DNA from: Flavobacterium chungbukense
Lineage (GTDB): Bacteria > Bacteroidota > Bacteroidia > Flavobacteriales > Flavobacteriaceae
DNA length: 64,000 nucleotides
Reading direction: 5' to 3'
Assembly (NCBI RefSeq): GCF_020805785.1
Contig: NZ_JAJGZV010000001.1
Span: forward strand, 248,001-312,000
The stretch's first letter is position 1. Each line of letters begins with the position of its first letter. This document shows, one piece after another, positions 39,957-57,736 of this stretch. A model generated the notes under the pieces. The model did not search any database. It was not told the origin of the DNA and saw only the letters and a list, made by a program, of their open reading frames with translations. A program made the translations under genes and the position numbers.

Positions 39957-39988
39957 TTGACTAAATCGGTAGAATTAGTATATATTTG
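39957..39988 (+). promoter_or_regulatory. Bacteroidota promoter for the SAM-riboswitch transcript
   Basis: TATATTTG (39981-39988) fits TAnnTTTG. TTG at 39957-39959, 21 nt earlier, fits the -33 element. The start would be near 39995, just before the aptamer. Confidence 0.65.
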
Positions 39989-40012
39989 CATCACAGAAAA
40001 TTTCTGAAATGA

Positions 40013-40113
40013 TACTTATCCAGAAAGACTGAGGGAATAGGCCCGATGAAGTCTTAGCAACCTGTTGCCCAATAAGGTGCTAAATCCTTCCCGATTTGCG
40101 GGACAGATAAGAA
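40013..40113 (+). promoter_or_regulatory. SAM-I (S-box) riboswitch
   Basis: P1 is CTTATC / GATAAG (40015-40020 with 40106-40111). P2 is AAGACT / AGTCTT. The conserved core reads GAGGGA, GGCCCGATGAA, AGCAACC, GGTGCTAA and TCC in the S-box order. CCCG...CGGG makes P4. Binding of S-adenosylmethionine normally shuts off downstream genes. I see no strong intrinsic terminator between the aptamer and susC, so control may act on translation or on a downstream structure. Confidence 0.92.
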
Positions 40114-40173
40114 TAAAGATTTGCTCAAAATCTGAATAAGGTCATCAAATGTTAAAATCTATTTATTAAAAAA

Positions 40174-40272
40174 ATGAAAAGCAAATTAGTTTTATTACAC
40201 GCCAATTTTGATTGTTTGAATTTATTTTTCCACGAAAATAATATTGAAGTTTTCCGAATGCGAAGACACTAA
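40174..40272 (+). CDS. 32-residue ORF between the riboswitch and susC
   Basis: An ATG with an A-rich lead opens 32 codons starting MKSKLVLLHANFDC and ending FRMRRH. It is 61 nt after the aptamer and 95 nt before susC. It is the first translatable ORF of the riboswitch RNA. It could be a regulatory leader whose translation is switched by SAM. There is no family I recognise and chance occurrence cannot be excluded. Confidence 0.45.
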   Translation: MKSKLVLLHANFDCLNLFFHENNIEVFRMRRH

Positions 40273-40367
40273 ATTTTTCTCTTTTTTCCTTTTTTAAATA
40301 GCATTTGCTGAAGGCCTCTTAACATTGGCCCAGGAATTCTTTTGTCCAACCTTAAACTAAAATCATT

Positions 40368-43300
40368 ATGAAAAAAATCTTACTCAGCTTATTACTTCTG
40401 CTCAGTATCTTTCCTACAAGCCTTTTTGCACAGGATAAAACAATCACTGGAATTATCAGGGATTCTGAAAATGGCGACCCTTTGCCGGGTGTAACGATTG
40501 TTGCTTCTTCGAGCGGAAAAACAGCAATCAGTGATGGAAACGGTCAATTTTCTATTACCGTCACATCAAAAGATCAACAAGTGGCATTCAGCTATGTTGG
40601 TTATAAAACATTAGAAAAAAATACAAATTCTTCTTTCGGAAATATACGTCTAGTTTCTGAAAATACTGCTTTAAAAGAAGTAGTTGTAGTAGGTTATGGA
40701 ACACAAAGCAAAAAAGAATTTACCGGTTCTGCGGCTCGAGTAACAGCAAAAGCGATTAAAGATATTCCGGTTCAGAGTTTTGAACAAGCGCTTATAGGTA
40801 AAGCTTCTGGTGTAAATGTCTCTACTCCAAGCGGGGTTTTAAATGATCCGCCAGTAATTAGAATTCGTGGTGTAAATTCGATTTCGCTAAGTTCTTATCC
40901 TTTAGTTGTTGTAGACGGAATTCCCGTAAATACAGGTGATATTTCGACCACCAATTCAGTTGCCAACAATCCTTTGGCAGATATTAATCCCGCAGATATT
41001 GAGTCGATTGATATTCTAAAAGATGCGGCGTCAACCTCAATTTACGGTTCTCGTGCGGCAGGTGGTGTACTTTTAATAACTACTAAAAAAGGAAAACAAG
41101 GAAAAGCAAAAGTAACGTATGATAGCTGGGTTGGAATAACAAGAGCCACCAGACTTCCAGATCTTTTGGATGCTGAGCAATACGAAACCATTAAAAATGA
41201 AGCGGTTTTAAACAGCAAAATTTTAGCTGGTAATGAAAATAATGCTGCTGTTGCATCGGCACTTTTTTTTCCTTCTTATAATGCAGATGGTTCGCGTGTA
41301 AATACAAAATGGAAAGATTTAGTGTATCGTGATGCCGTTTCTCAAAATCATAATATTGGTATTTCTGGAGGAACAGAAAGTACAAGATATTATTTCTCAA
41401 CCAATTATTCTAAACAAGAAGGTATTACAAAAGACAATGAGTTTGAAAGAAAAGGGGCAAGATTTAATATTGATCACGATGTGAACAGCTGGTTGAAATT
41501 GGGCGGAAATTTATCTTATAACAATACTTTTAACCAGGCACAAAATACAGGTTCTTTAAGCAGCAGTGGTTTATTGTTAATTGGGGCGGCGCGTTTAGCT
41601 TTTGCATTGCCTCCAAATGTTTCAGCTTATAATGCAGACGGATCGTATAACTTAAGTTCGACAGGAACAGCGAGTCCAGGAAATAACTTATTTACTAATA
41701 CTTTATGGCATCCGGGAGCATTATTTGAAAACAGCAGATATACCAGTACTAATGATCATTTTGTTGGAAATATTCACGCAACAATTACTTTCTTCGACGG
41801 ATTCAAGTTTGACAGTAATTATGGAATTGACCGTTTAAAATCTGAAAACATTACTTATTTAAGTCCAAACTTAGGTTCATCTGCGTATGCTACGGCAGGT
41901 TCTGCTACAAATATTGCGGCAACAAGAAACAACTACAACTTTACAAACAGTTTGTCTTTTGATAGACGTTTTGGAGCCAATCATCATATTGCAGCTTTGG
42001 CAGGTTATGATGTGCAGAAATATGAAAATTCTTCTTGGGGAGCCAATCAAACGAATGTTTCTGATCCTTTCTTCGAAAATTATCAAGGAACTTGGGGAAC
42101 TATCCGTTCTTCTGGTAATGGACTTTCAGAAAGACTTTTTCTTTCTTCTTTCTTCAGATTATCGTATGATTATGGTGGAAAATATTTCTTAACCGGGAAT
42201 TTTAGAAAAGACGGAAACTCTGCTTTAGGAGTGAATAATAAATATGGAAACTTCGGTGGTATTTCTACTGGATGGTCTGTAAGCGAAGAAGCATTTTTTA
42301 AAAACAGCAGTATTTCTAATTACTTAAATTCATTAAAATTAAAAGGAAGCTGGGGTAGAGTAGGAAACGGAAATCTTTCTTCGGCGTACGCTTCACAAAA
42401 TTTATATAGTTCATCTATTTATGGATCTGCCGCAACTTGGGCACTTTCTCAGGCTGGAAATGAAGATTTAGGTTGGGAAACGAGCGATCAGACGAATATT
42501 GGTTTAGAGGCAGGTTTCTTTAAAGACAGATTACAATTATCTGCAGATTATTTCAATAACAATGTAAACGGATTAATTCTGAGCAGTCCGCAATCGCCAT
42601 CAAAAGGAATTCCAGGAAATTCTATTTTATCAAACGTAGGTTCTATGTACAACCGCGGTATCGAATTGGGACTTAACGCTTCGATTATCAATAAAGAAGA
42701 TTTTCAATGGAAAGCGTCTTTCAATTACACACATGTAAAAAATAAAGTAACGGCTCTGGCTGAAGGAAATACAGATATTATTGGGTATACACAAGTTACG
42801 ACTGAGGCAAACAATATTACTAGAGTAGGTTATTCGGCAGGAAGTCTTTACGGTGCTGTAACGGCAGGTGTAAATCCAGAAAACGGACGCAGAATTTTCT
42901 TGAACAAAAACGGAGAAAAAGTGCAGTACAGTGCTGCAGCTCCTTCGGGACAAAGCAACTGGACCTACTTAGACGGAACAACTGCCGCAGCGATTACAGT
43001 AGCAGATTATCAGGTTTTAGGGAATGCTTTACCAGTTTGGTACGGTGGTTTAACCAATAATATTCAATACAAAGCATTTGATTTTACTGTTGGGTTTACG
43101 TATTCAGGTGGTAATAAAGTCATGAATAATACAAGAGGAACTCTTTTAGATCAGCGTTTTTACAACAATTCGACAGAAATTTTAAACCGTTGGACTACGC
43201 CGGGACAAGTAACCAACATTCCGAGATTAGTTTACAATGACGTCATTTCAAACGGTTCAAGCGGATTTGCCCTTTCTGATAATGCTGAAAAAGCAGATTT

Positions 43301-43538
43301 CTTAAGATTGCAGCAGTTGGCAATTGGTTTCTCTCTTCCAAAAAATATTTTGGCAAAAGCACAATTGGCATCAGTTAGAGTTTATGCGCAGGCTACGAAT
43401 CTTTTCTTAATTACATCCTATTCAGGAACAGACCCAGAGACTTCTTCAAATGGAGATTCAACAACTTCTATGGGAGTAGAGAAAAACTCAGTTGGACAAG
43501 GAAGAACTTTTACTGTTGGGCTTAACGTAGGTTTTTAA
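40368..43538 (+). CDS. SusC/RagA-family TonB-dependent transporter under SAM riboswitch
   Basis: 1056 residues. A signal peptide (1-21, LFAQ) is followed by a carboxypeptidase-regulatory-like domain (about 24-105), a TonB-box-like KEVVVVGYG, a plug (about 115-230; LKDAASTSIYGSRAAGG) and a barrel ending TVGLNVGF. No STN domain is present, in agreement with the absence of a sigma/anti-sigma pair. It opens an operon whose 5' UTR carries the SAM-I aptamer, so its cargo is probably a source of methionine or sulfur. Confidence 0.93.
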   Translation: MKKILLSLLLLLSIFPTSLFAQDKTITGIIRDSENGDPLPGVTIVASSSGKTAISDGNGQFSITVTSKDQQVAFSYVGYKTLEKNTNSSFGNIRLVSENTALKEVVVVGYGTQSKKEFTGSAARVTAKAIKDIPVQSFEQALIGKASGVNVSTPSGVLNDPPVIRIRGVNSISLSSYPLVVVDGIPVNTGDISTTNSVANNPLADINPADIESIDILKDAASTSIYGSRAAGGVLLITTKKGKQGKAKVTYDSWVGITRATRLPDLLDAEQYETIKNEAVLNSKILAGNENNAAVASALFFPSYNADGSRVNTKWKDLVYRDAVSQNHNIGISGGTESTRYYFSTNYSKQEGITKDNEFERKGARFNIDHDVNSWLKLGGNLSYNNTFNQAQNTGSLSSSGLLLIGAARLAFALPPNVSAYNADGSYNLSSTGTASPGNNLFTNTLWHPGALFENSRYTSTNDHFVGNIHATITFFDGFKFDSNYGIDRLKSENITYLSPNLGSSAYATAGSATNIAATRNNYNFTNSLSFDRRFGANHHIAALAGYDVQKYENSSWGANQTNVSDPFFENYQGTWGTIRSSGNGLSERLFLSSFFRLSYDYGGKYFLTGNFRKDGNSALGVNNKYGNFGGISTGWSVSEEAFFKNSSISNYLNSLKLKGSWGRVGNGNLSSAYASQNLYSSSIYGSAATWALSQAGNEDLGWETSDQTNIGLEAGFFKDRLQLSADYFNNNVNGLILSSPQSPSKGIPGNSILSNVGSMYNRGIELGLNASIINKEDFQWKASFNYTHVKNKVTALAEGNTDIIGYTQVTTEANNITRVGYSAGSLYGAVTAGVNPENGRRIFLNKNGEKVQYSAAAPSGQSNWTYLDGTTAAAITVADYQVLGNALPVWYGGLTNNIQYKAFDFTVGFTYSGGNKVMNNTRGTLLDQRFYNNSTEILNRWTTPGQVTNIPRLVYNDVISNGSSGFALSDNAEKADFLRLQQLAIGFSLPKNILAKAQLASVRVYAQATNLFLITSYSGTDPETSSNGDSTTSMGVEKNSVGQGRTFTVGLNVGF

Positions 43539-43558
43539 TAACGAATAAAAAAATTATC

Positions 43559-45016
43559 ATGAAAACATATTTCAAATCACATAAAAAACCAGTTTTAGCT
43601 TTATTGTTATTTTCAAGTATTCTGCTGACTTCTTGCGAGAATAATGAAGATCTGAATATTGCTCCAGAAACAACGGTTTCAGACAAGGATATTTTTAAAA
43701 CTCCGGCAAGAATCGAAGGATTGGTAAACGGAATTTACAAGGCGTTTAAAGGTGCCAGTTTATACGGAGGCCGTATTTTGCTGTATCAAGATCAGCGTGG
43801 GGAAGATTTTATCAATATCACAGCAAATAATTTTACAGGTTACGAAAGCTGGAACAATTCGTACAGTTCTGGCTCCAATGATATTAATAATCTCTGGGCT
43901 CAAGCTTATTCCGCTATTAATAACGCTAATATTTTAATTGAAGGCTTAGCTGTAAATCAAGGTGTAATTACCGAAGAAAAAGCCAAACAATATATTGGTG
44001 AAGCAAAATTAGTTAGAGCGCTGGCTTATTATACTTTGGTTATCAATTTTGGACAGCCTTATAATAAAGATTCTGGAGCATCAAAAGGAGTTCCGTTGCG
44101 ATTAAAAGCAGAAACAGGAACAGCCAATAATGATTTAGCAAGAAGCTCTGTGGCAGAAATTTATACGCAGATATTAAAAGATTTAAACGAAGCCGAAGCA
44201 GCACTGCCACAGAGTTATTCGACTGCCGATCTGAATACGACAAGAGCGCACGTAAGTACTGCAATTGCAGTAAAAACAAGAGTTTATCTTACGCAGAACA
44301 ACTGGGCAAAAGTAATTGAAGAAGCAGCCAAATTAGCGCCGCAGACACAAGCGCCTTTTTCCACTACTGCCAGCGAAATTAAACATGCTCTGCAACCCGA
44401 TATTACAATGATTTTTTCTTCAAATTATGCAACGGTAGAATCTATTTTCAGTATTCCGATGAGCAGTTTGGACTCCTATACAGGTCAGTCTTCTATCGCT
44501 TATATCTACAACACGAATTTAGAATATTACCTAAATCCGACTGGAATTTTGGGCGATGCGCAGTGGAGAACTGCTGATAAAAGACGCGATTTAACAAGAA
44601 CCGTTTCAGGAAAACAGTACTTTAAGAAATACGCAAAACCATCACCGTTCTTAGATTATATTCCAGTAATACGCTATTCTGAAGTATTATTAAATTATGC
44701 TGAAGCAGCAGCCAAAACAGGAAATTTAACACTGGCAGCTAATTTACTGACAGCAGTACACCAGCGTTCTGATGCTACATATATATTTCCTGTGACAGTA
44801 ACTTCAGATCAAAATCAATTGATTCAGGCGATTTGGAAAGAACGCCGAATTGAACTTTTAGGAGAAGGTTTTCGCGGTCCAGATTTGCTAAGAAACTTAC
44901 AGACGCTTCCAGCAAAAGGAGATAGCAAATTACAGACTCCAGCAGTTTTACCGTCTGATGCTAATTATATTTTTCCACCAGCGAATACAGAATTGTCAGC
45001 TAATAAATTATACTAG
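43559..45016 (+). CDS. RagB/SusD-family outer-membrane lipoprotein
   Basis: 485 residues, lipid Cys26 (LLTSCENNED). It has the helical-repeat body (AKLVRALAYYTLVINFGQPY) and the C-terminal RRIELLGEGFRGPDLLR pattern of SusD/RagB. It starts 20 nt after susC. It is the lid and ligand-capturing subunit of the transporter. Confidence 0.92.
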   Translation: MKTYFKSHKKPVLALLLFSSILLTSCENNEDLNIAPETTVSDKDIFKTPARIEGLVNGIYKAFKGASLYGGRILLYQDQRGEDFINITANNFTGYESWNNSYSSGSNDINNLWAQAYSAINNANILIEGLAVNQGVITEEKAKQYIGEAKLVRALAYYTLVINFGQPYNKDSGASKGVPLRLKAETGTANNDLARSSVAEIYTQILKDLNEAEAALPQSYSTADLNTTRAHVSTAIAVKTRVYLTQNNWAKVIEEAAKLAPQTQAPFSTTASEIKHALQPDITMIFSSNYATVESIFSIPMSSLDSYTGQSSIAYIYNTNLEYYLNPTGILGDAQWRTADKRRDLTRTVSGKQYFKKYAKPSPFLDYIPVIRYSEVLLNYAEAAAKTGNLTLAANLLTAVHQRSDATYIFPVTVTSDQNQLIQAIWKERRIELLGEGFRGPDLLRNLQTLPAKGDSKLQTPAVLPSDANYIFPPANTELSANKLY

Positions 45017-45038
45017 AAATCCATAATAATTAACCACG

Positions 45039-45074
45039 AAACTTTGTCAGAATACTGCATTTTGACAAAGTTTT
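45039..45074 (+). terminator. Intra-operon hairpin after susD
   Basis: AAACTTTGTCA / TGACAAAGTTT with a 13-nt loop and four T. It is a partial terminator or stabiliser separating susCD from the periplasmic genes, as after the PKD gene in locus 1. Confidence 0.6.
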
Positions 45075-45090
45075 ACAAAAATCAAATACG

Positions 45091-46074
45091 ATGAAAAAGA
45101 TACTATTAGGTTTTGCTTTATTTTTTGGGATTGCACAATCTCAAGCACAAGAAAATAATTTACAACTAAAAGGAACGGTTGTAGATACGGTTGCACAGTA
45201 TGTTTACCTGCAAAAGTTTCATAATAAGATGTTTACGACAATTGATTCGGTAAAAGTAAAAGATGGAAGTTTTAGTTTTAAAACCAAAGTTACTACTCCA
45301 GAATTGTACGGTTTAAGTGTGAATACAGCCAATATTCCGCTTTATATTTTCCTTGAAAAAGGACCGATTAACGTAAAATTAAGTCCAAAGAAATATTACA
45401 GCGCTTCTGTGGTTGAAGGTTCAGAAACTCAAAATTTATTTGAAACTTATAAAAAAACGAAAGACGTAGAAATCAGTAAATTCATTACCGAACATCCTAA
45501 ATCTATTGTTTCGTCTTATGTCTTATATAGAAATTGGTCGTACAGATTATCTCCCGAAGAAATTACAAAAAATATTGCTTTGCTTGATAAAAGTCAGCAA
45601 AACAGCACTTACGTGAAAGAACTAAAAGAACTGGTAACCGTTTTAAACGGATTGGCGGTCGGTAAAAAAGCCCCTGATTTTACTGCTCCAAATCCAGATG
45701 GTAAACCAGTTCGTTTTTCAGAAAATTTAAAAGGGTATACTTTGGTCGATTTCTGGGCTTCATGGTGCGGTCCTTGCCGAAAAGAAAATCCAAATATTGT
45801 AGCGGCTTACAAAGAATATCACGACAAAGGGTTCAACATTATCGGAATTTCTTTAGATAAAAAGAAAGAAAATTGGGTAAAAGGAATTCAAGAGGATAAC
45901 TTAAACTGGCTGCAAGTTTCGGAGTTAACATACTGGAACAGCACAATCGCCAAATTATATGGAGTGAGAGCCATTCCTGGAAATTATTTAGTTGATTCAA
46001 AAGGAATTATTGTAGCGAGAAACCTTCGCGGAGAAGACCTTCAGACAACACTTAAGACACTTTTGGATAAGTAA
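45091..46074 (+). CDS. TlpA-like thioredoxin family protein
   Basis: 327 residues with a signal peptide (1-19, SQAQ). A DUF4369-like beta domain (about 22-110) precedes a thioredoxin domain (about 190-327) with WASWCGPCR (Cys226, Cys229) and a cis-Pro in AIPGNYLV. It is probably a periplasmic disulfide reductase. In a sulfur-scavenging operon it could reduce disulfides or methionine sulfoxide systems, but that is inference. Confidence 0.88.
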   Translation: MKKILLGFALFFGIAQSQAQENNLQLKGTVVDTVAQYVYLQKFHNKMFTTIDSVKVKDGSFSFKTKVTTPELYGLSVNTANIPLYIFLEKGPINVKLSPKKYYSASVVEGSETQNLFETYKKTKDVEISKFITEHPKSIVSSYVLYRNWSYRLSPEEITKNIALLDKSQQNSTYVKELKELVTVLNGLAVGKKAPDFTAPNPDGKPVRFSENLKGYTLVDFWASWCGPCRKENPNIVAAYKEYHDKGFNIIGISLDKKKENWVKGIQEDNLNWLQVSELTYWNSTIAKLYGVRAIPGNYLVDSKGIIVARNLRGEDLQTTLKTLLDK

Positions 46075-46085
46075 ATAAAAGTTTT

Positions 46086-46223
46086 TTTAAACACATAGAA
46101 ACATAGATTAAATTTTAAATGTAGAAGAAATTTAGGAAAACTAGTTTTCACACATAGCTATGTTTATTTAAACAAATGAAATGCCTTTATAGACAAAGAA
46201 AAACTATGTTTCTATGTGTTGAA
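46086..46223. repeat. Dispersed inverted repeat (ACACATAGAAACATAG family), copy 2
   Basis: About 138 bp bounded by AAACACATAGAAACATAG and ACTATGTTTCTATGTGTT, with an internal CACACATAGCTATGTTTA palindrome. It shares ends and layout with 8341-8490. This copy sits inside an operon, between the TlpA and M14 genes. Confidence 0.75.
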
Positions 46224-46263
46224 AAAACAAAAGAATACTCATGAAAAATTAAACAATAATAAA

Positions 46264-47508
46264 ATGAAAACGAAATTATTTTTTTCAACCGCGGTATTAC
46301 TTGTCTTATCGGCGAATGCACAAGTAAAAAGTAGTTTTAAAGGACAAGATCCGATTACGGCTGTTTCGACTGTAACGCGTCCTGTTCAAAAACAATGGAA
46401 AGGCGTTTTTGATAAAACTGGTGATGAAGTTTTCTTCGGGAATGATTTTGTAGGAGCAAGATTAAATGGTGTTGTCAAATTAGATGATAATAATTTCAGC
46501 GTTCTGATTACGCCCGAAAATGCACCAATAAACGGAAGTCCGTGGTACGCTTTTAAAGTCTGGTCGAAAACTAATAAAGAAATCAAGATTCGTTTTGATT
46601 ATCCTGCGGGAGTAAAACACCGTTACAACGCAAAAATAAGCACCGACGGAAAACAATGGAAAGCTTCTGAAAAGGGCACTTTCGTGAAAAGAGAAAAAGA
46701 TTCCAATTATGTATTGACAGTCAAAGTGAGTAAAGATACTACTTGGATTGCCGCTCAAGAACTTAAAACTTCTAAAGAAATAAACGAATGGATTTCGGCT
46801 TTAAAAAATAAAAACAATGCGGCAGAAGCTTCAATAGGCTTAACTGCCGAAGGACGAAAAATTCCTGTTTTTAGTATCGGAAATCCTTCTTCTAAAAATA
46901 AAATTTTGATTTCGGGCAGAAATCATCCGCCAGAAGTGACAGGACATTATGCGCTTGAAGCTTTTGTAGAAAGTTTAACAGCCGATACACCATTGGCAAA
47001 AAAGTTCAGAAAGAAATTTGAAGTGTACGTCATCCCTCTTCTGAATCCCGATGGTGTTGACGGCGGTTTTTGGAGACATAATTCGGGCGGAATCGATTTG
47101 AACCGCGATTATAATGATTTCAATCAGCCAGAAACTAGAGCTGTTCGCGACTTTCTAAAAAATGAAATTAAGGATTCTAATAAATTATGGTTTGCAATTG
47201 ACTTCCATTCAACTCACGACGATATTTATTATACCGTTGATCCTGAATTGAAAGGAAATATTCCAGGTTTTGTTCCGAATTGGCTGAACAAAGTAAAAGA
47301 CGGAATTCCGGGTTATACGCCTCATGTAAAGCCTTTATATTTCAAACCACCAACTTTTACCTTGTTTAGTTATTTGTTTGAAACATATAAAACAGAAGCT
47401 TTGGTTTTTGAAATTGGAGATAATACACCAAAAGATTTCATTAAAAAGAAAGGCGAAGTTTCTGGAGCAGAATTCATGAAACTGATATTGGAAAACGTTA
47501 AAAACTAA
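46264..47508 (+). CDS. M14 family zinc carboxypeptidase
   Basis: 414 residues from ATG 46264, which gives a proper signal peptide (ANAQ); an upstream start at 46216 would lie in the repeat element. Zinc ligands are His221 and Glu224 (HPPE) and His315 (DFHST). Arg-binding GGIDLNRDYN and the catalytic Glu383 (VFEIGD) are present. It should trim residues from the C-terminus of peptides in the periplasm. It is 11 nt before the S9 peptidase. Confidence 0.9.
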   Translation: MKTKLFFSTAVLLVLSANAQVKSSFKGQDPITAVSTVTRPVQKQWKGVFDKTGDEVFFGNDFVGARLNGVVKLDDNNFSVLITPENAPINGSPWYAFKVWSKTNKEIKIRFDYPAGVKHRYNAKISTDGKQWKASEKGTFVKREKDSNYVLTVKVSKDTTWIAAQELKTSKEINEWISALKNKNNAAEASIGLTAEGRKIPVFSIGNPSSKNKILISGRNHPPEVTGHYALEAFVESLTADTPLAKKFRKKFEVYVIPLLNPDGVDGGFWRHNSGGIDLNRDYNDFNQPETRAVRDFLKNEIKDSNKLWFAIDFHSTHDDIYYTVDPELKGNIPGFVPNWLNKVKDGIPGYTPHVKPLYFKPPTFTLFSYLFETYKTEALVFEIGDNTPKDFIKKKGEVSGAEFMKLILENVKN

Positions 47509-47519
47509 AAGAAATCAAG

Positions 47520-49679
47520 ATGATCAAAAATAAATTATACATAGTTTTTGCCCTGATTGCTTCTGTCTGTTGTTTTAGTCAGCAAAAAAAGGAACTCATT
47601 CAGGTTACCGATCTTTTAAAAATCAGAACTGTTGGTGATGTTGAAGTGAGCAAAGACGGACAAAATGCTGTTTTTACAGTAAAAAGCATCATTAAAAATC
47701 CAGAGAACGCTTTGGATTACGATTATGACACACAACTTTGGATTGCGAAAACGGCTAAAAATAGTACGCCAAGACAATTAACTTTCGGAAAAGAAGGATC
47801 AAGTTCTCCTGTTTTTAGTCCAGACGGAAAACAAATTGCCTTTACTAGAAGTGTAAAAGGAAAATCTCAAATCTTCCTTTTTAAAGTCGATGAAGGCGGA
47901 GAAGCAGTCCAATTGACCGAATCTAAATATGGCGCTGGAAATCCTAAATGGAGCCCAGACGGAAAACAGATTTTGTTTACAGCTTCGATACAAATTAACG
48001 AATTGGTTAAAGATTCGATTTTAAATCCAAAAAAAGAATTGCCAATCTGGAGTTTTGAAAAACCCGGATTTGCTGCAAATGAAAATCTGAAAAGCAACAA
48101 AACCAAAGCCGATCCAAACGGAAATATCGAAGCAATTCGTGCGTATTTGGAAAACAACGAAAAAGATAAAAAAGCAAAAGTAGTTGACAAACTGCAATTT
48201 CAAACTGAAACCGCAGTTAGCAGTGAATTACGTTTTTCGCATATTTTTATTATTGATGCCAAACTTGGCGCAAAAGAAAAAGCCATTACAAAAGGATTTT
48301 ATTCGCATTCAAATCCTTCGTTTATAAGCAATACCAAAATTGTTTTCAACGGAAATATCAATGAAAAAAGACATCCGGACCGTGTTTTAGAAAACAAAAT
48401 TTATACGATCAATACCGACGGAACAAATGTAACTGAATTATTAGGCGCAGAAAATACCGTGTTTCAGCTTTTAGCCGTTTCGCCTTCAGGAAAACAATTG
48501 GCATATCAAGAAAGTATTATCAATAATTTGTCGGTTCCAGTTCTTAAAATTTTCAGTTTAGAAAATCCTTTCGCTAAAAGTAAAGTCATTGATTATGATC
48601 GAAATAACAATAATGTTCGATTTTCTAAAGATGACAAACAGCTATATTTTACGTCATCAAGCAATGGCGGATATGTACTTTGCAATGTGCCATTAAACAC
48701 TTTAAAAGTACAAACTTTAACTTCTTTCGATCAAGGAATTACGGATTATGATTTTAATAATGATGTTTTGGTTTTTGCTAAAACAGCCGTTGAAAATCCG
48801 TCAGAACTTTATATTTCTGATTTGAAATTAAAAGCACCAAGATTAGTTTCTGAATTCAATACCAACTGGTTGAAAAATAAAGAAATCAGTTTTCCAGAAA
48901 AGGGAACATTTACCAACGAAAAAGGTTTAGAAATTGAATATTGGGTAACCAAGCCAGCTCGTTTTGAGCAAGGAAATAAATATCCATTATTGACAGAAAT
49001 TCACGGAGGGCCAGCTTCAATGTTTGGTCCTGGTGATGGAAGTATGTGGCTGGAATATCAGTTTTTTGCAGCTCAAGGTTATGGAGTTTTGTACAGTAAT
49101 CCGAGAGGTTCTTCGGGTTATGGCGAAAAATTCTTAAGATCAAATATTAAAGATTGGGGACCAGGACCATCAAGTGATGTTTTGACAGCTTTAGACAAAA
49201 CCGTAGCACAAGGATGGGCAGATACCAACCGATTGTTTATTACAGGAGGCTCTTACGCAGGATATTTAACCACTTGGATTATCAGTCACGATCAGCGTTT
49301 TAAAGCAGCTTCTAGCCAACGTGGGGTTTATGATTTAGGTACTTTTTTTGGAGAAGGAAATGTGTGGCGAATGGTTCCGAGATATTGGGGCGGTTATCCG
49401 TGGGAAGAAGAAACAAAAGCGATTTTAGAACGTGAATCACCGCTAAATTATGCGCAAAATATCAATATTCCATTTTTGATTATTCATGGAGATAATGATT
49501 ATAGAACGGGTGTTACACAAAGTCAGATGTTGTACAAAACCTTAAAAGTTTTAGGAAAACCTGTAGAATATGTCAGACAGCCGGGCGCGAGTCACGAAAT
49601 TACCAGAAGCGGTGATAATCGTCAGAGAATCGACCAATTGCTTCGAACTTTTGAATTCTTTGAAAGATTCAATAAATAA
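47520..49679 (+). CDS. S9 family prolyl-oligopeptidase-type serine peptidase
   Basis: 719 residues with a signal peptide (about 1-20). An N-terminal beta propeller with Tol-WD40-like repeats (SSPVFSPDGKQIAFTR, GNPKWSPDGKQILFT) is followed by an alpha/beta hydrolase domain. The triad is Ser578 (GGSYAG), Asp660 (HGDNDYR) and His692 (GASHE). Such enzymes cut short peptides, as oligo- or dipeptidyl peptidases. It complements the M14 enzyme in peptide breakdown. Confidence 0.92.
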   Translation: MIKNKLYIVFALIASVCCFSQQKKELIQVTDLLKIRTVGDVEVSKDGQNAVFTVKSIIKNPENALDYDYDTQLWIAKTAKNSTPRQLTFGKEGSSSPVFSPDGKQIAFTRSVKGKSQIFLFKVDEGGEAVQLTESKYGAGNPKWSPDGKQILFTASIQINELVKDSILNPKKELPIWSFEKPGFAANENLKSNKTKADPNGNIEAIRAYLENNEKDKKAKVVDKLQFQTETAVSSELRFSHIFIIDAKLGAKEKAITKGFYSHSNPSFISNTKIVFNGNINEKRHPDRVLENKIYTINTDGTNVTELLGAENTVFQLLAVSPSGKQLAYQESIINNLSVPVLKIFSLENPFAKSKVIDYDRNNNNVRFSKDDKQLYFTSSSNGGYVLCNVPLNTLKVQTLTSFDQGITDYDFNNDVLVFAKTAVENPSELYISDLKLKAPRLVSEFNTNWLKNKEISFPEKGTFTNEKGLEIEYWVTKPARFEQGNKYPLLTEIHGGPASMFGPGDGSMWLEYQFFAAQGYGVLYSNPRGSSGYGEKFLRSNIKDWGPGPSSDVLTALDKTVAQGWADTNRLFITGGSYAGYLTTWIISHDQRFKAASSQRGVYDLGTFFGEGNVWRMVPRYWGGYPWEEETKAILERESPLNYAQNINIPFLIIHGDNDYRTGVTQSQMLYKTLKVLGKPVEYVRQPGASHEITRSGDNRQRIDQLLRTFEFFERFNK

Positions 49680-49710
49680 TACAATTTGTTAATTTAAAAA
49701 TGATAGGGAA

Positions 49711-51186
49711 ATGAATGCTATTGAGAACATTAAACCATTTAGTTTACAAAGTTATTTTTCTGAGTTCAGAAAAAATACAGTAGGTGTAAATCATAGTTTT
49801 GAATCGGTTTATGGAGAACAGAATTTGCTTTATGCAGATTGGGTTGCCAGCGGAAGGTTGTACGCTCCGATTGAAGATATTATGCTTAATAAAATAGGTC
49901 CGATGATTGCCAATACGCATTCACTTTCTAGTCAGACCGGAAAAACGTCTACCTATGCTTATCAGTATGCAAGAGACATTATAAAAAAAGCAGTAAATGC
50001 AAATGAATCGGATGTTTTGGTTACGACGGGAACTGGAATGACGGCGGCTTTATCTAAACTCCAGCGTATTATTGGTTTGAGAAAAAACGATGAAAACGAA
50101 AAAGATAAACCAGTAGTTTTTATCACGCACATGGAACATCATTCTAATCAAGTTCCTTGGTACGAAACCAATGCCGATGTTGTGATTTTACCTGCCGATG
50201 AAAATAATTTGGTTGATCCTAAAATTCTTTCTGCGGAAATAAAAAAATATGCCGATAGAAGTGTAAAAATTGGTTCGTTTACAGCATGTTCGAACGTGAC
50301 AGGAATTATAACGCCTTATCATGATTTAGCCAAAATCATGCATCAGAATGGCGGATTGTGTTTTGTCGATTTTGCAGCTTCAGCACCTTATGTCAAAATC
50401 GATATGCATCCAAAAGATCCAGAACAGCAATTGGATGCCATTTTCTTTTCGCCTCATAAGTTTTTGGGCGGACCGGGAACCTGTGGTATTTTGGTTTTTA
50501 ATGAAAAATTATACCAATCTGATTTTCCAGATAATCCAGGCGGAGGAAATGTAAAATGGACCAATCCTTTAGGGAATTATTGTTACAGCGATGTTATTGA
50601 AGTAAGAGAAGACGGCGGAACACCAGGGTTTTTACAAGTAATTCGAGCGGCTTTGGCTTTAGAATTAAAAGAAAAAATGGGAGTAGAACAGATTGCAAAA
50701 AGAGAAAAAGAATTGCTGGATCTTTGTTTTTTAAAACTTCAAAAAATACAAGGTTTGTCTATTTTGGGAGATTTAAAAAGCAAACGAATTGGCTGTGTTT
50801 CTTTTGTAATTGAAGATATTCACTACAACTTGATTGTAAGATTGCTGAATGATCGTTTCGGAATTCAGACTCGTGGCGGCTGGTCGTGTGCGAGTACATA
50901 TGCGCATTATCTTTTTAATATTGATGAAAAACGTTCTAGAGCGATTACGACAGAATTATTAGAGAAAAATCAAACCAATAAACCGGGCTGGGTTCGTTTG
51001 TCACTTCATCCGATAACAACAGATGAGGAACTTTTATTTATCTGCGATGCCATTCAGCAAGTGGCTTCGAATTATAAAAAATGGCAGAAAGATTACGAAT
51101 ATAATCCTGCAACAAATGAATTTGAAAATCCTCGAATAAAAGATACAATAGAAAGAGAAGTAAAGGAATGGTTTGAACTGGATTAA
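49711..51186 (+). CDS. Class V aminotransferase-fold PLP enzyme (cysteine-desulfurase-like)
   Basis: 491 residues, no signal peptide. The fold-type-I PLP enzyme has TGTGMTAALSK, the HMEHHSNQVPW segment, PLP Lys250 (SPHKFLGGPG) and a late Cys393 in RGGWSCAST. The last is where SufS/CsdA desulfurases carry the catalytic cysteine. It is longer than the usual 400-residue SufS. Possible roles are cysteine or selenocysteine desulfuration or lyase action on a sulfur compound taken up by this locus. Its place in a SAM-riboswitch operon favours sulfur chemistry. Confidence 0.8.
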   Translation: MNAIENIKPFSLQSYFSEFRKNTVGVNHSFESVYGEQNLLYADWVASGRLYAPIEDIMLNKIGPMIANTHSLSSQTGKTSTYAYQYARDIIKKAVNANESDVLVTTGTGMTAALSKLQRIIGLRKNDENEKDKPVVFITHMEHHSNQVPWYETNADVVILPADENNLVDPKILSAEIKKYADRSVKIGSFTACSNVTGIITPYHDLAKIMHQNGGLCFVDFAASAPYVKIDMHPKDPEQQLDAIFFSPHKFLGGPGTCGILVFNEKLYQSDFPDNPGGGNVKWTNPLGNYCYSDVIEVREDGGTPGFLQVIRAALALELKEKMGVEQIAKREKELLDLCFLKLQKIQGLSILGDLKSKRIGCVSFVIEDIHYNLIVRLLNDRFGIQTRGGWSCASTYAHYLFNIDEKRSRAITTELLEKNQTNKPGWVRLSLHPITTDEELLFICDAIQQVASNYKKWQKDYEYNPATNEFENPRIKDTIEREVKEWFELD

Positions 51187-51204
51187 TGATTAATTTAACA
51201 AAAG

Positions 51205-52203
51205 ATGAAAGCAATTCTATTACAGGAAAACCGTCAATTTCAGTTGCAAACAATTGAAACTCCTCAACCAGAACCCCATCAGATTCAGGTGCAGATTGTA
51301 GCTTCGGGTTTTAACCCAATTGACTACCAAATGACCGAAAATGGTTCTGAAAGAAAGCTTTTGCATTCGCCTATTTTAGGAAGGGAATTTTCAGGAATTA
51401 TTACAAAAATTGGAGCAAGTGTAAAAGATTTTAAAATTGGTGATGCTGTTTTTTGCGGTTCGGGAAGCATGGGTTCTAACGGAACTTACGCCGAATATAT
51501 TTGCGTTCCAGAAGCAATTGTAGTAAAGAAACCGAAGAACATTTCGTTTGAAGAAGCCGCTGCAATTCCATCAGCTGGATTAACGGCTTTACAGTCTTTT
51601 AAGAGAATGAAGGCCTCTCTGACAGATTCCATATTAATTACTGGAGCAGCTGGGGGAGTAGGGAATTTGTTTATAAAAATCCTTATTGGAAAAGGTTTCT
51701 CAAACTTTGTCGTGACCGCTGGAAATGAAGAAAGTATTGCTTCTTTAATTAATCTTGGAGTAAAATCACAGCAAATCATTAATTATAAAAAACAAGAAAT
51801 ATACGATGCGGCACTTTCTTTAAATGGAAATAAAAATTTTGATATTGTAGTAGATTTGGTAGGAAATAAAATTGCTGAAGTAGCTACTAAACTGATGAAA
51901 ATAAATGGAACCTACTTAGATGTAACAAATTTTTCAACTCCAGAATCCCGAAATATTCTTTTTTCGAGAGGAGCTACTATTCACAATATTTCCAATTATG
52001 CTTATGGACTCGAAAAACGTTACGACTATTATAAAAATGGTTTGACTGAGTTAGCACAATTGTTTGAAAGTAAAATCATTGCACCGCCGAATGTTTCGAT
52101 AATTGGAGAATTAAACACGAGAACGGTTGTTAAAGCGCTTTGGCTTTTACGTGAAAATAAAACGTATGGAAAAAAATTAATAATGCAGATCAATAAAGAA
52201 TGA
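51205..52203 (+). CDS. MDR-family NAD(P)-dependent oxidoreductase (quinone reductase-like)
   Basis: 332 residues. A GroES-like N-terminal half (EFSGIITKIGASVKDFKIGD) and a Rossmann half (ITGAAGGVGN, about 145-160) fit zinc-independent quinone oxidoreductases of the zeta-crystallin group. It starts 18 nt after the PLP enzyme and overlaps the cupin gene by 4 nt, so it is part of the same operon. The substrate is unknown. Confidence 0.88.
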   Translation: MKAILLQENRQFQLQTIETPQPEPHQIQVQIVASGFNPIDYQMTENGSERKLLHSPILGREFSGIITKIGASVKDFKIGDAVFCGSGSMGSNGTYAEYICVPEAIVVKKPKNISFEEAAAIPSAGLTALQSFKRMKASLTDSILITGAAGGVGNLFIKILIGKGFSNFVVTAGNEESIASLINLGVKSQQIINYKKQEIYDAALSLNGNKNFDIVVDLVGNKIAEVATKLMKINGTYLDVTNFSTPESRNILFSRGATIHNISNYAYGLEKRYDYYKNGLTELAQLFESKIIAPPNVSIIGELNTRTVVKALWLLRENKTYGKKLIMQINKE

Positions 52204-52670
52204 AAACAATACCAAGAAGAGTTGTAACAGGAATTAAAAACGGAAAATCAATTATTGAGCAAGATGCTATTGTAACCAATGTTTCAGAGCATTTTCCGGG
52301 TTTGATTATTTCAGACATTTGGTCAACCGATAGTACTCCAGCAAAATTTGAAGATAAAAATATAGAAAATACTGCTTTTCCAAACACGCCCAAAAACGGA
52401 AGTTATTTTAGATATGTGCAAATTCCTCCAGATAAAGATTTGGGAATTGTGGCACCCGAAGGCCAACCTCATCCATTAATGCATCAAACCGATACTTTAG
52501 ATTATATCATTATAATATCTGGAGAAATTTATTTGATTGTTGATGAAGAAGAAACATTGTTGAAACCTGGAGATATCGTAATTCAGCGCGGAACAAATCA
52601 TGCGTGGAGCAATCGTTCCGATTTACCTTGTATTCAATTAGCTATTTTATTAGATGCTAAGAATGATTAA
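52200..52670 (+). CDS. Cupin domain protein
   Basis: 156 residues. The conserved cupin motifs are visible: HPLMHQTDTLDYIIIISGE and a second motif PGDIVIQRGTNHAW with His. The set of His/Glu ligands is partial, so it may bind a metal or only a small ligand. The ATG overlaps the stop of the oxidoreductase gene. It may bind the product of that enzyme; nothing more specific can be read. Confidence 0.85.
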   Translation: MKTIPRRVVTGIKNGKSIIEQDAIVTNVSEHFPGLIISDIWSTDSTPAKFEDKNIENTAFPNTPKNGSYFRYVQIPPDKDLGIVAPEGQPHPLMHQTDTLDYIIIISGEIYLIVDEEETLLKPGDIVIQRGTNHAWSNRSDLPCIQLAILLDAKND

Positions 52671-52759
52671 ATTATGTTGCAAACGTTATAGTAGTCTATT
52701 AGATTGATAGGAAAATAAAAGTTTTAATAGTTTTTTCATTAAAATTGAAAATAACTGCT

Positions 52760-52767
52760 TAAATTTG
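52760..52767 (+). promoter_or_regulatory. Bacteroidota -7 box before the met leader ORF
   Basis: TAAATTTG fits TAnnTTTG and ends 8 nt before the leader ATG, so the RNA would be almost leaderless. Confidence 0.55.
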
Positions 52768-52775
52768 CAATCGCA

Positions 52776-52871
52776 ATGAGAAAAAAAGACCAGAATATGA
52801 AGAATTATTATAACAGTGCAATGATGTGCCGTGTTGTTGTAATGCAATTCATTGATCTGGCTTCTAAATAA
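52776..52871 (+). CDS. 31-residue methionine-rich leader peptide
   Basis: An ORF of 31 codons with five Met (1, 8, 16, 17, 23) and a core AMMCRVVVMQF. It starts just after a -7 box and ends 18 nt before a terminator hairpin that precedes metN. This is the layout of a ribosome-mediated attenuator reading methionyl-tRNA. GGCTT (52859-52863) inside the ORF is complementary to AAGCC of the terminator 5' arm, a possible but short antiterminator. Confidence 0.7.
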   Translation: MRKKDQNMKNYYNSAMMCRVVVMQFIDLASK

Positions 52872-52889
52872 AACTATATTATTTATCTC

Positions 52890-52927
52890 AAAAAGCCTTT
52901 CATGAATATTTGAAAGGCTTTTTGTTT
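52890..52927 (+). terminator. Attenuator terminator upstream of metN
   Basis: AAAAAGCCTTTCA pairs with TGAAAGGCTTTTT across an 8-nt loop, followed by T-rich sequence. It lies between the leader ORF and metN, so it would block metNIQ unless read through. Confidence 0.85.
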
Positions 52928-52943
52928 TAACCTTGATAACGAA

Positions 52944-53975
52944 ATGATTGAATTAAAAAATGTAACCAAAACTTTTCATCAGAAAGACAGGATTGTTACT
53001 GCTTTGTCTGATGTCTCATTAAGAGTTCCGCCAGGGAAAGTCTTTGGTGTAATTGGAACTTCAGGTGCAGGAAAAAGTACTTTAATCCGTTGTGTGAATT
53101 TGTTGGAAAGACCAACTTCGGGAGAAATTATTGTCGACGGCAAAGCATTGATGCAATTATCTAACGCTGAATTAGCGATAGAAAGAAGACAAATCGGAAT
53201 GATTTTTCAGCATTTTAATCTACTTTCTTCTAGGACGGTATTCGAAAATGTTGCTTTTCCTTTAGAGTTGGCAGGAACTTCAAAAAGCGAAATTAAAACT
53301 CGAGTTTTAGAGTTACTGCAATTGGTTGGTTTGGCTGAAAAAGCAAACGACTATCCGGCAAGTCTTTCGGGAGGACAAAAGCAGAGAGTGGCAATTGCGA
53401 GAACTTTGGCCAATAATCCGAAAGTATTGTTATGTGATGAAGCTACAAGTGCTTTAGATCCAGCGACAACGCGTTCGATTTTGAATTTATTGAAAGACAT
53501 TAATAAACGATTGAATATTACAGTTTTATTGATTACGCATCAAATGGAAGTAGTAAAATCGATTTGTGATGAAGTGGCAGTTATCAGCTACGGAAAACTA
53601 ATTGAACAGGGAAGTGTTGGTGAAATTTTCGCTGATCCGAAACAAGAATTGACTAGAGAGTTTATTTCTTCTTCTTTGCATATCGAGATTCCGTCTGTTT
53701 ATCAGGAAAGATTACAACAAAAAGATAACGGAAATTTGAATCCGTTATTGAAATTAGAAATGACTGGAAAGTCTGTTAATGAACCCGTTATTTCAGAAGT
53801 TTCAAGACTTTTTGATACTGATTTCAAAATTGTTAGTGCACAGATGGATCAGGCGGGAGAAGTAAATTTTGGTGTAATGCTGATTGAACTTTCAGGAAAA
53901 CGCGAAAATTATGATGCTGCAATTCAATATTTTAATTCAAAACACATTAAAACAGAAATTATAGGTTATGTCTGA
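52944..53975 (+). CDS. metN: Methionine ABC importer ATP-binding protein
   Basis: 343 residues. All ABC motifs are intact: Walker [10 protein letters not shown] (38-46), Q loop FQHF, signature LSGGQKQR and Walker B LLCDEAT. The C-terminal NIL domain (about 265-343), the ACT-like methionine sensor of MetN, is present and supports methionine over other amino acids. It overlaps metI by 8 nt. Expression is probably set by the leader peptide and terminator just upstream. Confidence 0.93.
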
Positions 53976-54621
53976 TTCTCTTATAGATTTATTGTTAAAA
54001 GGAACATGGGAAACCATTGTTATGACTTTTGTATCGGGATTTTTTGGATTTTTACTAGGATTGCCAACAGGAATTTTACTTTTTCTGACACGTAAAAATC
54101 AAATTTTAGAACAGCCCGTTTTAAATCGAGTTTTATCGGTTTTAGTAAATGTTTTCCGTTCAATACCATTCATTATTTTAATCGTTTGGATGATTCCATT
54201 TACTCGTGCAATTGTGGGAACTTCAATTGGTGTTAGTGCGGCTTTAGTACCGTTAAGTATTGGCGCGGCACCTTTTATTGCTCGTTTAGTAGAAAACAGT
54301 TTATTAGGTCTTCCTTCAGGTTTGATTGAAGCGGCAAGAGCTTTAGGAGCGACTCCTCTTCAAATTGTTTATAAAGTATTGCTGCCAGAAGCATTGCCTT
54401 CTCTAATCAATGCAGCTTCCATTACTTTAATTACTCTTGTAGGTTATTCTGCAATGGGCGGAGCTGTTGGTGCTGGCGGATTAGGGCAAGTGGGTTATCA
54501 ATACGGTTATATTGGTTACGATGCCGTTACGATGAATTCGGTTTTAGGTTTACTGGTAATTTTGGTATTCCTGATTCAGTTTGCCGGAGATGCTTTGTCT
54601 AAACGATTTGACCATAGATAA
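53968..54621 (+). CDS. metI: Methionine ABC importer permease
   Basis: 217 residues with five or so membrane helices. The permease EAA-like loop ([28 protein letters not shown], read as key residues EAARALGA...LPEA) contacts MetN. The glycine-rich [11 protein letters not shown] stretch is typical of MetI. It overlaps metN and is 48 nt before metQ. Confidence 0.93.
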
Positions 54622-54669
54622 TCATTCAATTAAAAATTTAGAATTAAAAATTAAAAATAAATAGAGAGT

Positions 54670-55482
54670 ATGAAACTAAATATTTTAAAAACAGCTGGGG
54701 TTTTGGCTTTGGCGCTTGTTTTATCAAACTGTGGAAATGATAAAAAAAATGATCCGCATTTTATTAAAGTTGGAGTTGCTGCGGGACCAGAATTAAAGGT
54801 TGCAGAAGCGGCTAAAAAAGTAGCCAAAGAAAAATTCGGATTAGAAGTAGAATTGGTTTCATTCAATGACTATGTTATTCCGAACGAAGCTTTAAGTCAA
54901 GGTGATATTGATGCAAATGCTTTTCAGCACAAACCATACATGGACGAGCAATCGAAACAACGCGGCTATAAATTGGCCATTATCGGAAAAACATTTGTTT
55001 ACCCAATTGCAGGTTATTCTAAGAAAATAAAAAACCTTTCTGAATTAAAAAATGAAAGCACAATCATTATTCCAAACGATCCAACAAACGGCGGTCGTTC
55101 TTTATTGCTTTTACAGAAAAATGGTTTATTGAAATTGAAGGACGGAGTTGGTTTATTGCCAAAAGTAACTGACATTGTAAGTAATCCTAAAAACTTAAAA
55201 ATATTAGAATTAGAAGCGCCTCAATTGCCTAGAGCTTTAGACGATGCAAACGTTTCTATTGCGATTATCAATAATACATTTGCTTCTCAAGCTGGATTAG
55301 TTCCTTCTCGTGATGCTTTATTTGTTGAAGATAAAGAATCGCCTTATGTGAATTTAGTAGTAAGCCGTGAAGACAATAAAAATGAAGAAAAAGTAAAACA
55401 GTTTTTACAGGCTTTTCAATCTCCAGAAGTAGAAAAGGCTGCTGAAGTGGAATTTAAAGGCGGAGCAGTAAAAGGCTGGTAA
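54670..55482 (+). CDS. metQ: Methionine-binding lipoprotein (NlpA family)
   Basis: 270 residues with lipid Cys21 (VLSNCGNDK). The NlpA/MetQ fold is shown by KVGVAAGPE, DANAFQHKPYMD, YSKKIKNLSEL and NDPTNGGRSLLLL. It binds methionine (D or L) on the outer face of the inner membrane and delivers it to MetNI. Confidence 0.93.
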   Translation: MKLNILKTAGVLALALVLSNCGNDKKNDPHFIKVGVAAGPELKVAEAAKKVAKEKFGLEVELVSFNDYVIPNEALSQGDIDANAFQHKPYMDEQSKQRGYKLAIIGKTFVYPIAGYSKKIKNLSELKNESTIIIPNDPTNGGRSLLLLQKNGLLKLKDGVGLLPKVTDIVSNPKNLKILELEAPQLPRALDDANVSIAIINNTFASQAGLVPSRDALFVEDKESPYVNLVVSREDNKNEEKVKQFLQAFQSPEVEKAAEVEFKGGAVKGW

Positions 55483-55501: not shown

Positions 55502-55536
55502 AAAAAAAAACAGGGACTTTAATCCCTGTTTTTTTT
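55502..55536. terminator. Terminator of metNIQ
   Basis: AAACAGGGA / TCCCTGTTT with a CTTTAA loop and a T run. A-runs before it may let it also serve the convergent membrane-protein gene. Confidence 0.9.
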
Positions 55537-57666: not shown

Positions 57667-57678
57667 AATTATAAAACT

Positions 57679-57716
57679 GGTATACTTTGTTAGTACGGCA
57701 AGGTAGTACTTTTGCC
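57679..57716 (+). promoter_or_regulatory. TonB-receptor promoter with candidate MocR operator
   Basis: TTTG (57686-57689) and TACTTTTG (57707-57714) make a -33/-7 pair 17 nt apart. Direct repeats GGTATACTTTG (57679) and GGTAGTACTTTTG (57702) overlap the two elements. GGCAA / TTGCC also flank the second. Direct repeats are usual for MocR binding. Confidence 0.55.
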
Positions 57717-57736
57717 AAAAAAAATAATAAACCAAA

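Follow-up and report, generated by a model that had tools for sequence, protein, structure and literature searches.

A SAM-I riboswitch before a SusCD operon of Flavobacterium: a probable sulfur or methionine scavenging system

SusCD systems have mostly been studied for glycans, and for peptides in the case of RagAB, and it is difficult to predict from sequence what they carry. What cargo is to be expected when such a system lies behind a riboswitch for S-adenosylmethionine (SAM)? The question is raised by an operon of Flavobacterium chungbukense, located in a stretch of 64,000 nucleotides (RefSeq assembly GCF_020805785.1, contig NZ_JAJGZV010000001.1, positions 248,001 to 312,000 of the forward strand) which is referred to here as the window, and which sits in contig C1 of a 5.35-Mb genome. 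A SAM-I aptamer precedes susC, susD and genes for a TlpA-like protein, an M14 and an S9 peptidase, a class V aminotransferase related to SufS (AT5), an alcohol dehydrogenase-like protein and a cupin, followed by metNIQ; these genes, named by an earlier reading of the letters of this DNA (the sequence-only reading), are all present on the plus strand (Table 1). While that observation holds, its interpretation is borne out only in part. It is argued below that this is probably a SAM-repressed sulfur or methionine scavenging operon of Flavobacterium, with peptides as the leading, albeit unproven and more tentative, candidate for its cargo.

The riboswitch, its promoter and its regulon

The sequence-only reading had recognized a clear SAM-I aptamer before susC, and the Rfam covariance model confirms it: cmscan of the window matched the full model (positions 1-108) at 81.0 bits as compared to a gathering score of 44.4 (E 1.6e-17), SAM-I being the only Rfam match at the gathering threshold in the whole window. 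The genome contains three SAM-I elements. Judged by position only, one of the other two heads metX, an aspartate kinase/homoserine dehydrogenase gene and a homoserine sulfhydrylase/metB-type gene, in a group that includes a gene which we take to be OsmC-like, and the remaining copy heads a split metH and metF. The MetX and metB-type proteins score below the curated cut-offs of their models, and their names are therefore given by similarity. Since the two other aptamers stand before metX/metB-type and metH/metF genes, the switch is part of a methionine regulon, of which the window operon is, as judged from sequence, the third and uptake-type member. The sulfate reduction genes cysH and cysD were found in the neighbourhood of the second SAM-I element, and the genome looks able to synthesize methionine from sulfate.

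The operon interval begins at position 39957 with the TTG of a putative promoter, TTG-N21-TATATTTG, TAnnTTTG being the Bacteroidota consensus of the -7 box. The exact pattern TTG-N16..23-TAnnTTTG occurs eight times on the plus strand of the window as compared to a shuffle mean of 6.2, which is no rarer than chance, so that the evidence for this promoter is conservation: each of 34 distinct Flavobacterium loci, chosen via the riboswitch, AT5 or susD, has the TATATTTG box upstream of its aptamer. Counts over this set omit L072, a duplicate from the same genome as L219, and L046, which has the riboswitch without tlpA or AT5. A separate start between aptamer and susC, which the sequence-only reading had named as a finding that would speak against it, was looked for by sequence, and no TAnnTTTG box is present in 39989-40400.

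Over the -33 region lies an operator-like motif. A search of the genome for ACTAATT(N)GGTAGAATTA gave 16 sites at up to two mismatches as compared to eight for a reversed control, and a sulfur regulon was rejected as no clear regulon emerged. Apart from the window site, one (L229) has promoter-like boxes, and the gene behind it has a start that we take to resemble glutamate dehydrogenase; another (L240) lies 194 bases 5′ of a metB-type gene and is without a promoter box. An Rrf2-family gene (L004:10904-11314; 107.5 bits, cut-off 73.3) that scores 78.6 bits on the CymR model (cut-off 195) adjoins a metB-type gene.

From susC to the cupin, the genes are separated by 20, 74, 189, 11, 31, 18 and -4 bases. 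SusC also matches TIGR04057 (57.5 bits, cut-off 46.2), and a SusC/RagA-type TonB-linked barrel together with a SusD lipoprotein places the pair in the SusCD/RagAB family. For the M14 peptidase the ATG at 46264 (MKTKLFF..., residue 17) is preferred as the start over the GTG at 46216 where the open reading frame (ORF) opens.

Table 1. Features of the susCD and metNIQ region (positions in the window)
Feature	Position	Strand	Evidence or remark
Putative promoter TTG-N21-TATATTTG	39957-39988	+	Bacteroidota-type; box conserved upstream of aptamer
Operator-like motif ACTAAATCGGTAGAATTA over -33 region	39960-39977	+	AATT-type; similar sequence in most of 34 upstream regions
SAM-I riboswitch aptamer (RF00162)	40013-40113	+	Rfam cmscan, 81.0 bits
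Leader ORF, 32 codons, MKSKLVLLHANFDCLNLFFHENNIEVFRMRRH	40174-40272	+	ORF in 34/34 homologous leaders
Hairpin GGCC-N10-GGCC	40313-40330	+	Weak support; 4-pair stem
Conserved leader motif GGAATTCTTTTGTCCAA	40333-40349	+	Flavobacterium leaders, common to f50 leaders
susC, TonB-dependent SusC/RagA-type transporter	40368-43538	+	TIGR04056, 760.6 bits (cut-off 368.25)
susD, surface lipoprotein lid	43559-45016	+	PF14322 and PF07980 over cut-offs
tlpA-like, DUF4369 and AhpC-TSA/thioredoxin-fold with CGPC	45091-46074	+	Families; signal-peptide-like start by eye
M14 zinc carboxypeptidase	46264-47508	+	HPPE, NRD, FHS motifs; signal-peptide-like start by eye
S9 prolyl-oligopeptidase/Dpp5-like peptidase	47520-49679	+	Families; signal-peptide-like start by eye
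AT5, SufS-like class V aminotransferase	49711-51186	+	Without signal-peptide-like start (by eye)
Zinc-type alcohol dehydrogenase/quinone reductase-like protein	51205-52203	+	Families
Cupin	52200-52670	+	Families
TAAATTTG box, putative metNIQ promoter	52760-52767	+	Kept in 7 aligned metN leaders
metN leader ORF, 31 codons, MRKKDQNMKNYYNSAMMCRVVVMQFIDLASK	52776-52871	+	MMC and MQ (Met/Cys codons)
Terminator-like hairpin AAAAAGCCTTTC...GAAAGGCTTTTT	52890-52923	+	Between metN leader ORF and metN; conserved
metN, methionine ATP-binding cassette (ABC) importer ATPase	52944-53975	+	TIGR02314, 547 bits (cut-off 499.7)
metI, permease	53968-54621	+	NF008049, 382.3 bits (cut-off 212)
metQ, substrate-binding lipoprotein	54670-55482	+	PF03180, 310.9 bits
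Terminator-like hairpin after metQ, 14 pairs	55503-55536	+	Terminator scan

The leader between aptamer and first gene

The leader ORF that follows the aptamer, which the sequence-only reading had overlooked, measures 23-32 codons across the 34 Flavobacterium leaders, with changes in length of whole codons, and its ratio of non-synonymous to synonymous differences (pN/pS) is 0.49 in frame as compared to 0.62 and 0.83 in the other frames, which gives moderate support to its being coding. The predicted peptide contains FRMR in 17 leaders and a near variant (LRMR, FRMQ, FRMH or FSMQ) in eight more, and it ends at FRM in two, at FF in six and earlier in one; the FRMR-like motif is present in 25 of the 34 only and is thus not indispensable. 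A similar ORF (SFRMRQSC, FFRMCMPVNI and TIRMCMELCCSS) was found in three loci of a second Bacteroidia family, referred to as f50, in which SAM-I lies directly before susC. Of 33 distinct SusC genes, 14 have the leader ORF, and these are exactly the ones directly behind SAM-I. An ORF pattern, devised after the peptides had been viewed so that the counts are descriptive and not a test, matched nine of 121 riboswitch loci (5/8 of Flavobacterium tlpA, 3/3 of f50 susC and 1/110 of the rest) and none of the reversed sequences of these loci. Further genomic copies of the ORF were rejected: the next matches of its hidden Markov model had E values of at least 0.09, and the six that were inspected lacked a fitting ORF and gene. 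A second exact match to the FRMR end in the genome was likewise discarded, as the stretch reads as part of a long frame.

The second conserved element of the leader is the motif GGAATTCTTTTGTCCAA, which the three f50 susC leaders carry as GGAATTNYTTTGYCCAA with 0-1 mismatches, 50-60 nt before the first gene and similarly placed as in Flavobacterium. This combination of SAM-I, short ORF and GGAATTNYTTTGYCCAA is common to two Bacteroidia families, the transporters that follow it being distant relatives only. In the genome, 36 sites match the 17-base motif at up to two mismatches as compared to seven in a control, and the five that were inspected comprise the operon's own and four within other genes. 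In one f50 genome (L260 of G527) a hairpin and GGGATTGTTTTGCCCAA, one mismatch from the leader motif, stand in an intergenic region 51 bases before a gene other than susC, and the motif may therefore not be tied to SusC leaders. Regarding the hairpin of the leader, all 29 of the 34 regions that fit its pattern give 85.7% paired cells and two-sided changes in three of the four pairs, values reached for pairing by 8 and for covariation by 6 of 500 shuffles; a stem slid by -1 gave a covariation nearly as high (0.232 as compared to 0.265), and RNAalifold predicted no consensus structure for this hairpin.

The motif ends in TTTG-Y like the Bacteroidota -7 box, and its conservation in two families could be explained if susC were transcribed mainly from a start within the leader, with GGAATTCTTTTGTCCAA as a degenerate -7 element and SAM control being partial. 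We consider such an arrangement decidedly unlikely, since the motif is without the TA of TAnnTTTG, the bases 5′ of it tend to covary as a stem and not as a -33 box, and it is the TATATTTG box upstream of the aptamer that is kept throughout. A tentative proposal, which we hold to be less likely than SAM-repressed scavenging itself, is that the leader constitutes a composite two-signal switch for sulfur-uptake operons, as opposed to biosynthesis operons: SAM-I would be combined with GGAATTNYTTTGYCCAA and a short ORF whose end is of the FRM(R/C) type, the latter specifying an arrest or attenuation peptide that responds to a further sulfur signal, and SusCD modules would have been recruited behind this switch from different origins.

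A constant core and an all-or-none block

Conservation of riboswitch and susCD in relatives, a check proposed by the sequence-only reading, was found in all ten close relatives among named genomes. Named genomes yielded 13 loci in a scan, of which ten have a susD 83-95% identical to that of the window, one is from Pedobacter (68%) and two are distant. The ten, comprising eight Flavobacterium, [Flexibacter] sp. ATCC 35103 and Flavobacteriaceae bacterium CRH, agree in the position of the riboswitch before susC and in the gene order susC-susD-tlpA-M14-S9. AT5 comes next in seven of them, was not found in one (L222), and in two (L220 and L221) follows a permease-like protein located behind S9, the start of which is the same as that of an amino-acid permease (Pfam) between tlpA and AT5 at another locus (L081).

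Of the 34 loci, 11 have orthologs of susD as well as of M14 and 23 have neither; owing to the way in which the loci were chosen, 11 of 34 is not a natural frequency. The constant core behind the Flavobacterium riboswitch is SAM-I, leader ORF, tlpA and AT5, and susCD-M14-S9 is a patchy, all-or-none module that lineages carry or lack as a block. The block lies on both sides of tlpA and was never seen split, and M14 and S9 are constant in the susCD loci (11/11). As susD and M14 occur together or are absent together, it can be argued that transporter and peptidase work together, which suggests a joint function of the parts of the block. Among the matches listed, 15 other genomes of the genus have three SAM-I elements, and in 14 the third stands before tlpA and AT5; these 14 are without orthologs of the operon's susC, susD, M14 and S9. 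The fifteenth (G004, locus L046) has a SAM-I of the same kind without tlpA and AT5, its first long genes encoding proteins of 148 and 2225 residues, the latter unrelated. The AT5 search yielded, among the matches listed, nine more tlpA-AT5 loci without these orthologs, L081 being one of them.

AT5 had been called cysteine-desulfurase-like in the sequence-only reading, which is correct insofar as the protein is related to SufS: its best solved matches are cysteine desulfurases, its residues K250, C393 and R429 are unchanged in all 21 sequences compared, and C393 aligns with the SufS cysteine. The counterparts of these residues in SufS we take to be the pyridoxal phosphate lysine, the active-site cysteine and the substrate arginine. 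On the SufS model, however, AT5 scores 157.7 bits, far below the cut-off of 475.1, and it is thus a distinct relative of SufS; nor is it an encapsulin cargo (117.4 bits on the cargo model, cut-off 800). Some AT5 homolog is present in at least 167 of 199 genomes of the genus. A paralog of AT5 (72-77% identity) was noted in clusters without SAM-I at six loci (L079, L082, L083, L085, L086 and L088), four of which contain two TlpA-like proteins and a SusD-like protein, and one (L082) an M16 peptidase and a DsbD-like protein (Pfam); in the genome of the window this paralog lies near the end of contig C9. A third copy in the same genome (contig C2, L087:11229-13432, 53-54% identity) is divergent from a gene that is presumably MsrA-like, by its sequence start.

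SAM-I is found in at least 223 of 296 Bacteroidia genomes, the own genus included. A survey of the first gene behind 90 riboswitches from outside the genus, for the most part those with the highest scores, gave metH-type in 48, metB-type in 20, metX in 2, susC in 3 and other genes in 17 cases. The three with susC (G527, G402 and G325) all belong to f50. A further two genomes of this family have susC in second place, the first gene encoding a class V aminotransferase-family enzyme in G443 and a redoxin/TlpA-like protein in G479. The f50 SusCs are 25-27% identical to that of the window where aligned, and their SusD, as tested for L195, belongs to a different Pfam type (PF12771). This second type of SusCD (57-61% to f50) also occurs in a Flavobacterium genome (G160), about 270 bases behind SAM-I-tlpA-AT5. 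With the f50 and G160 cases, the number of distantly related SusCD types linked to SAM-I rises to at least two. At three f50 loci (L197, L199 and L200) SAM-I directly precedes class V aminotransferase-family enzymes, by Pfam in L197 and by a similar start in the others; at L124, L153 and L171 it precedes what we take, from the look of the start, to be a peroxiredoxin-like protein.

Cargo, proposed mechanism and known systems

A methionine importer with its own leader next to the susCD operon was rightly recognized by the sequence-only reading, MetN and MetI scoring above curated cut-offs and MetQ being recognized as PF03180 only; that reading had inferred from order and regulation that the two transcripts form one pathway. 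metN starts 273 bases behind the cupin, and metN or metNIQ stands behind only four of the 11 susCD loci (window, L214, L215 and L216), with one other ending early at a contig end. All ten metN leaders examined (window, L035, L036, L042, L073, L076, L077 and L214-L216) have an ORF of the MC or MMCC type followed by a terminator-like hairpin before metN, and the metN leader is thus likely to be an attenuator for the amino acids Met and Cys, as far as sequence can tell. A second match to this ORF was absent from the own genome at E 10. The hairpin falls outside the list of the general terminator scan, which had a loop limit of 8 and which as a whole was at chance (12 terminator-like sites as compared to 11.0 in shuffles). 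With a TAAATTTG box, a leader ORF and a hairpin of its own, metNIQ probably forms a separate transcription unit that has its own promoter, and a continuation of the susCD transcript was rejected as the most likely reading. Beyond metNIQ, a gene for a MocR-type GntR/aminotransferase regulator on the minus strand lies back to back with one for a TonB-dependent receptor on the plus strand (56179-59599).

A source of sulfur amino acids is suggested as the cargo by the control through SAM, the SufS-like partner, the amino-acid importers and the peptidases, whose starts resemble signal peptides; a sulfur cargo is also favoured by the setting of the nearest outgroup SusCD. This outgroup, from Pedobacter sp. 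HMWF019 (70% and 68% identity), is sister to the window clade (100/100) and divergent from the genes for the shell of a family 2A encapsulin (528.7 bits, cut-off 380) and for the cysteine desulfurase that is its cargo (858.4 bits, cut-off 800); no SAM-I was found in the 13.9 kb of this locus. An encapsulin and cysteine desulfurase pair of such a kind is upregulated on sulfate starvation in Synechococcus, according to PMC8049743. The SusCDs of G233 and G245 (44-46% related) likewise stand beside such a pair. A grouping of all SusCs with SAM-I or encapsulin as one clade was rejected, since of the encapsulin-linked sequences none but that from Pedobacter is sister to the window clade. The shell and cargo genes beside related SusCDs are located at L089:16323-19164, L090:580-3418 and L224:3736-6405.

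These encapsulin loci also lend some weight to a cargo of non-peptide organosulfur (a sulfonate, sulfate ester, cystine or a glutathione-like compound), with peptidases that act elsewhere or are incidental: the G233 locus includes an amino-acid permease, an amidohydrolase, a sulfatase and a protein that reaches 239.8 bits with the model of alkanesulfonate monooxygenase (cut-off 518.2). Such a cargo appears rather unlikely given the constancy of M14 and S9 in every susCD locus of the window clade, and sulfatase- or monooxygenase-type genes directly behind the aptamer were not noticed in gene maps, where most unnamed genes were unsearched.

Several observations weigh against the operon being a SAM-repressed scavenging system. 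In 23 of the 34 loci tlpA is the first gene, with AT5 after it and without orthologs of susCD, M14 and S9, so that the idea of susCD as a fixed target of the riboswitch had to be abandoned; a close susD ortholog is present in only two of 199 genomes of the genus, the own one included, with an ortholog at 43-48% in a further seven. The SusCDs of G233 and G245 group with those from glycan-looking loci and not with the window clade, and SusC relatives at 41-42% stand in loci that we take, from gene starts, to be glycan-looking; such loci are also included in the sister lineage of the SusC clade. The AT5 model, for which Foldseek ranked SufS first, is of low confidence (pLDDT, the predicted local distance difference test score, of 62.6). 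The P1 fold (-35.9) and an alternative pairing of the P1 5′ arm with a downstream GAAUAAG (-34.3) differ by 1.6 kcal/mol, so that a switch between the two is possible. The leader ORF and motif, for their part, could act as a further point of control or as a promoter that escaped recognition. Absence of the cassette from 23 loci and eight gains or losses on a quick AT5 tree indicate a mobile or often lost block and, with the related SusCs in glycan-looking loci, would fit a SAM switch that evolved for a tlpA-AT5 sulfur/redox core, susCD-M14-S9 being a general peptide or glycan cassette that merely shares its regulation. Yet all 11 cassettes stand right behind the SAM leader with both peptidases, no locus has a partial cassette, and in f50 the SAM-I leaders are linked to another, distantly related susCD, a relative of which lies behind tlpA-AT5 in G160; a cargo unrelated to SAM is thus unlikely, and so, in our view, is this account.

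Under the preferred reading, a SAM-repressed scavenging operon, we infer an OFF switch. With SAM, and thereby methionine, in good supply, the aptamer would fold and expression would be lowered; once SAM falls, transcription from 39957-39988 would continue into susC. At the outer membrane, SusCD would take up a nutrient that contains sulfur, peptides being the most likely, and M14 and S9, if exported as their starts suggest, would trim it in the periplasm, where TlpA may keep thiols reduced. Amino acids would enter via MetNIQ, or in other species via the permease-like protein of the operon, and AT5 may mobilise sulfur in the cytoplasm; metNIQ would be linked in function and probably under its own Met/Cys-codon attenuator. 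If this is true, the cell opens a route for scavenging peptides or sulfur when methionine is low.

What is new here is a SAM-I riboswitch that targets an outer-membrane SusCD uptake operon and is accompanied by an extra conserved leader ORF; no earlier description of a SAM-controlled SusCD was found in the open-access PMC literature searched. The riboswitch is an independent and testable pointer to a sulfur or methionine cargo, which recurs with two distantly related SusCD types, and the linkage of the block, the encapsulin-associated sister and a leader ORF that was seen at operons for uptake and not at those for biosynthesis make the scavenging of organic sulfur across the Bacteroidota outer membrane open to test.

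With the SAM-I (S box) methionine regulons the system has in common the aptamer and the company of metX/metB-type and metH/metF genes, and it differs in that its target is an outer-membrane SusCD operon with peptidases, with an additional leader ORF and motif. RagAB of Porphyromonas gingivalis, which imports peptides, resembles it in SusC/D architecture and peptidase context. RagA is among the solved relatives of the window SusC, albeit as the second (280 bits) behind 8aa4, a SusC homolog by its title (412 bits), and RagAB is not known to be under SAM control. The family 2A encapsulin/cysteine desulfurase loci adjoin related SusCDs and share the sulfur theme, whereas the window operon is without an encapsulin and AT5 is not a cargo. 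TonB-dependent loci under cobalamin riboswitches in Bacteroides and Flavobacterium are likewise riboswitch-controlled uptake systems, albeit with another ligand and another transporter, and with peptidases unmentioned in the relevant passages of PMC10404256 and PMC9723704. Clues for leader-peptide attenuation before amino-acid biosynthesis operons of F. psychrophilum are given in a passage of PMC9723704; unlike those attenuators, the leader ORFs described here are joined with a SAM-I aptamer, before susC or tlpA, or stand before metNIQ.

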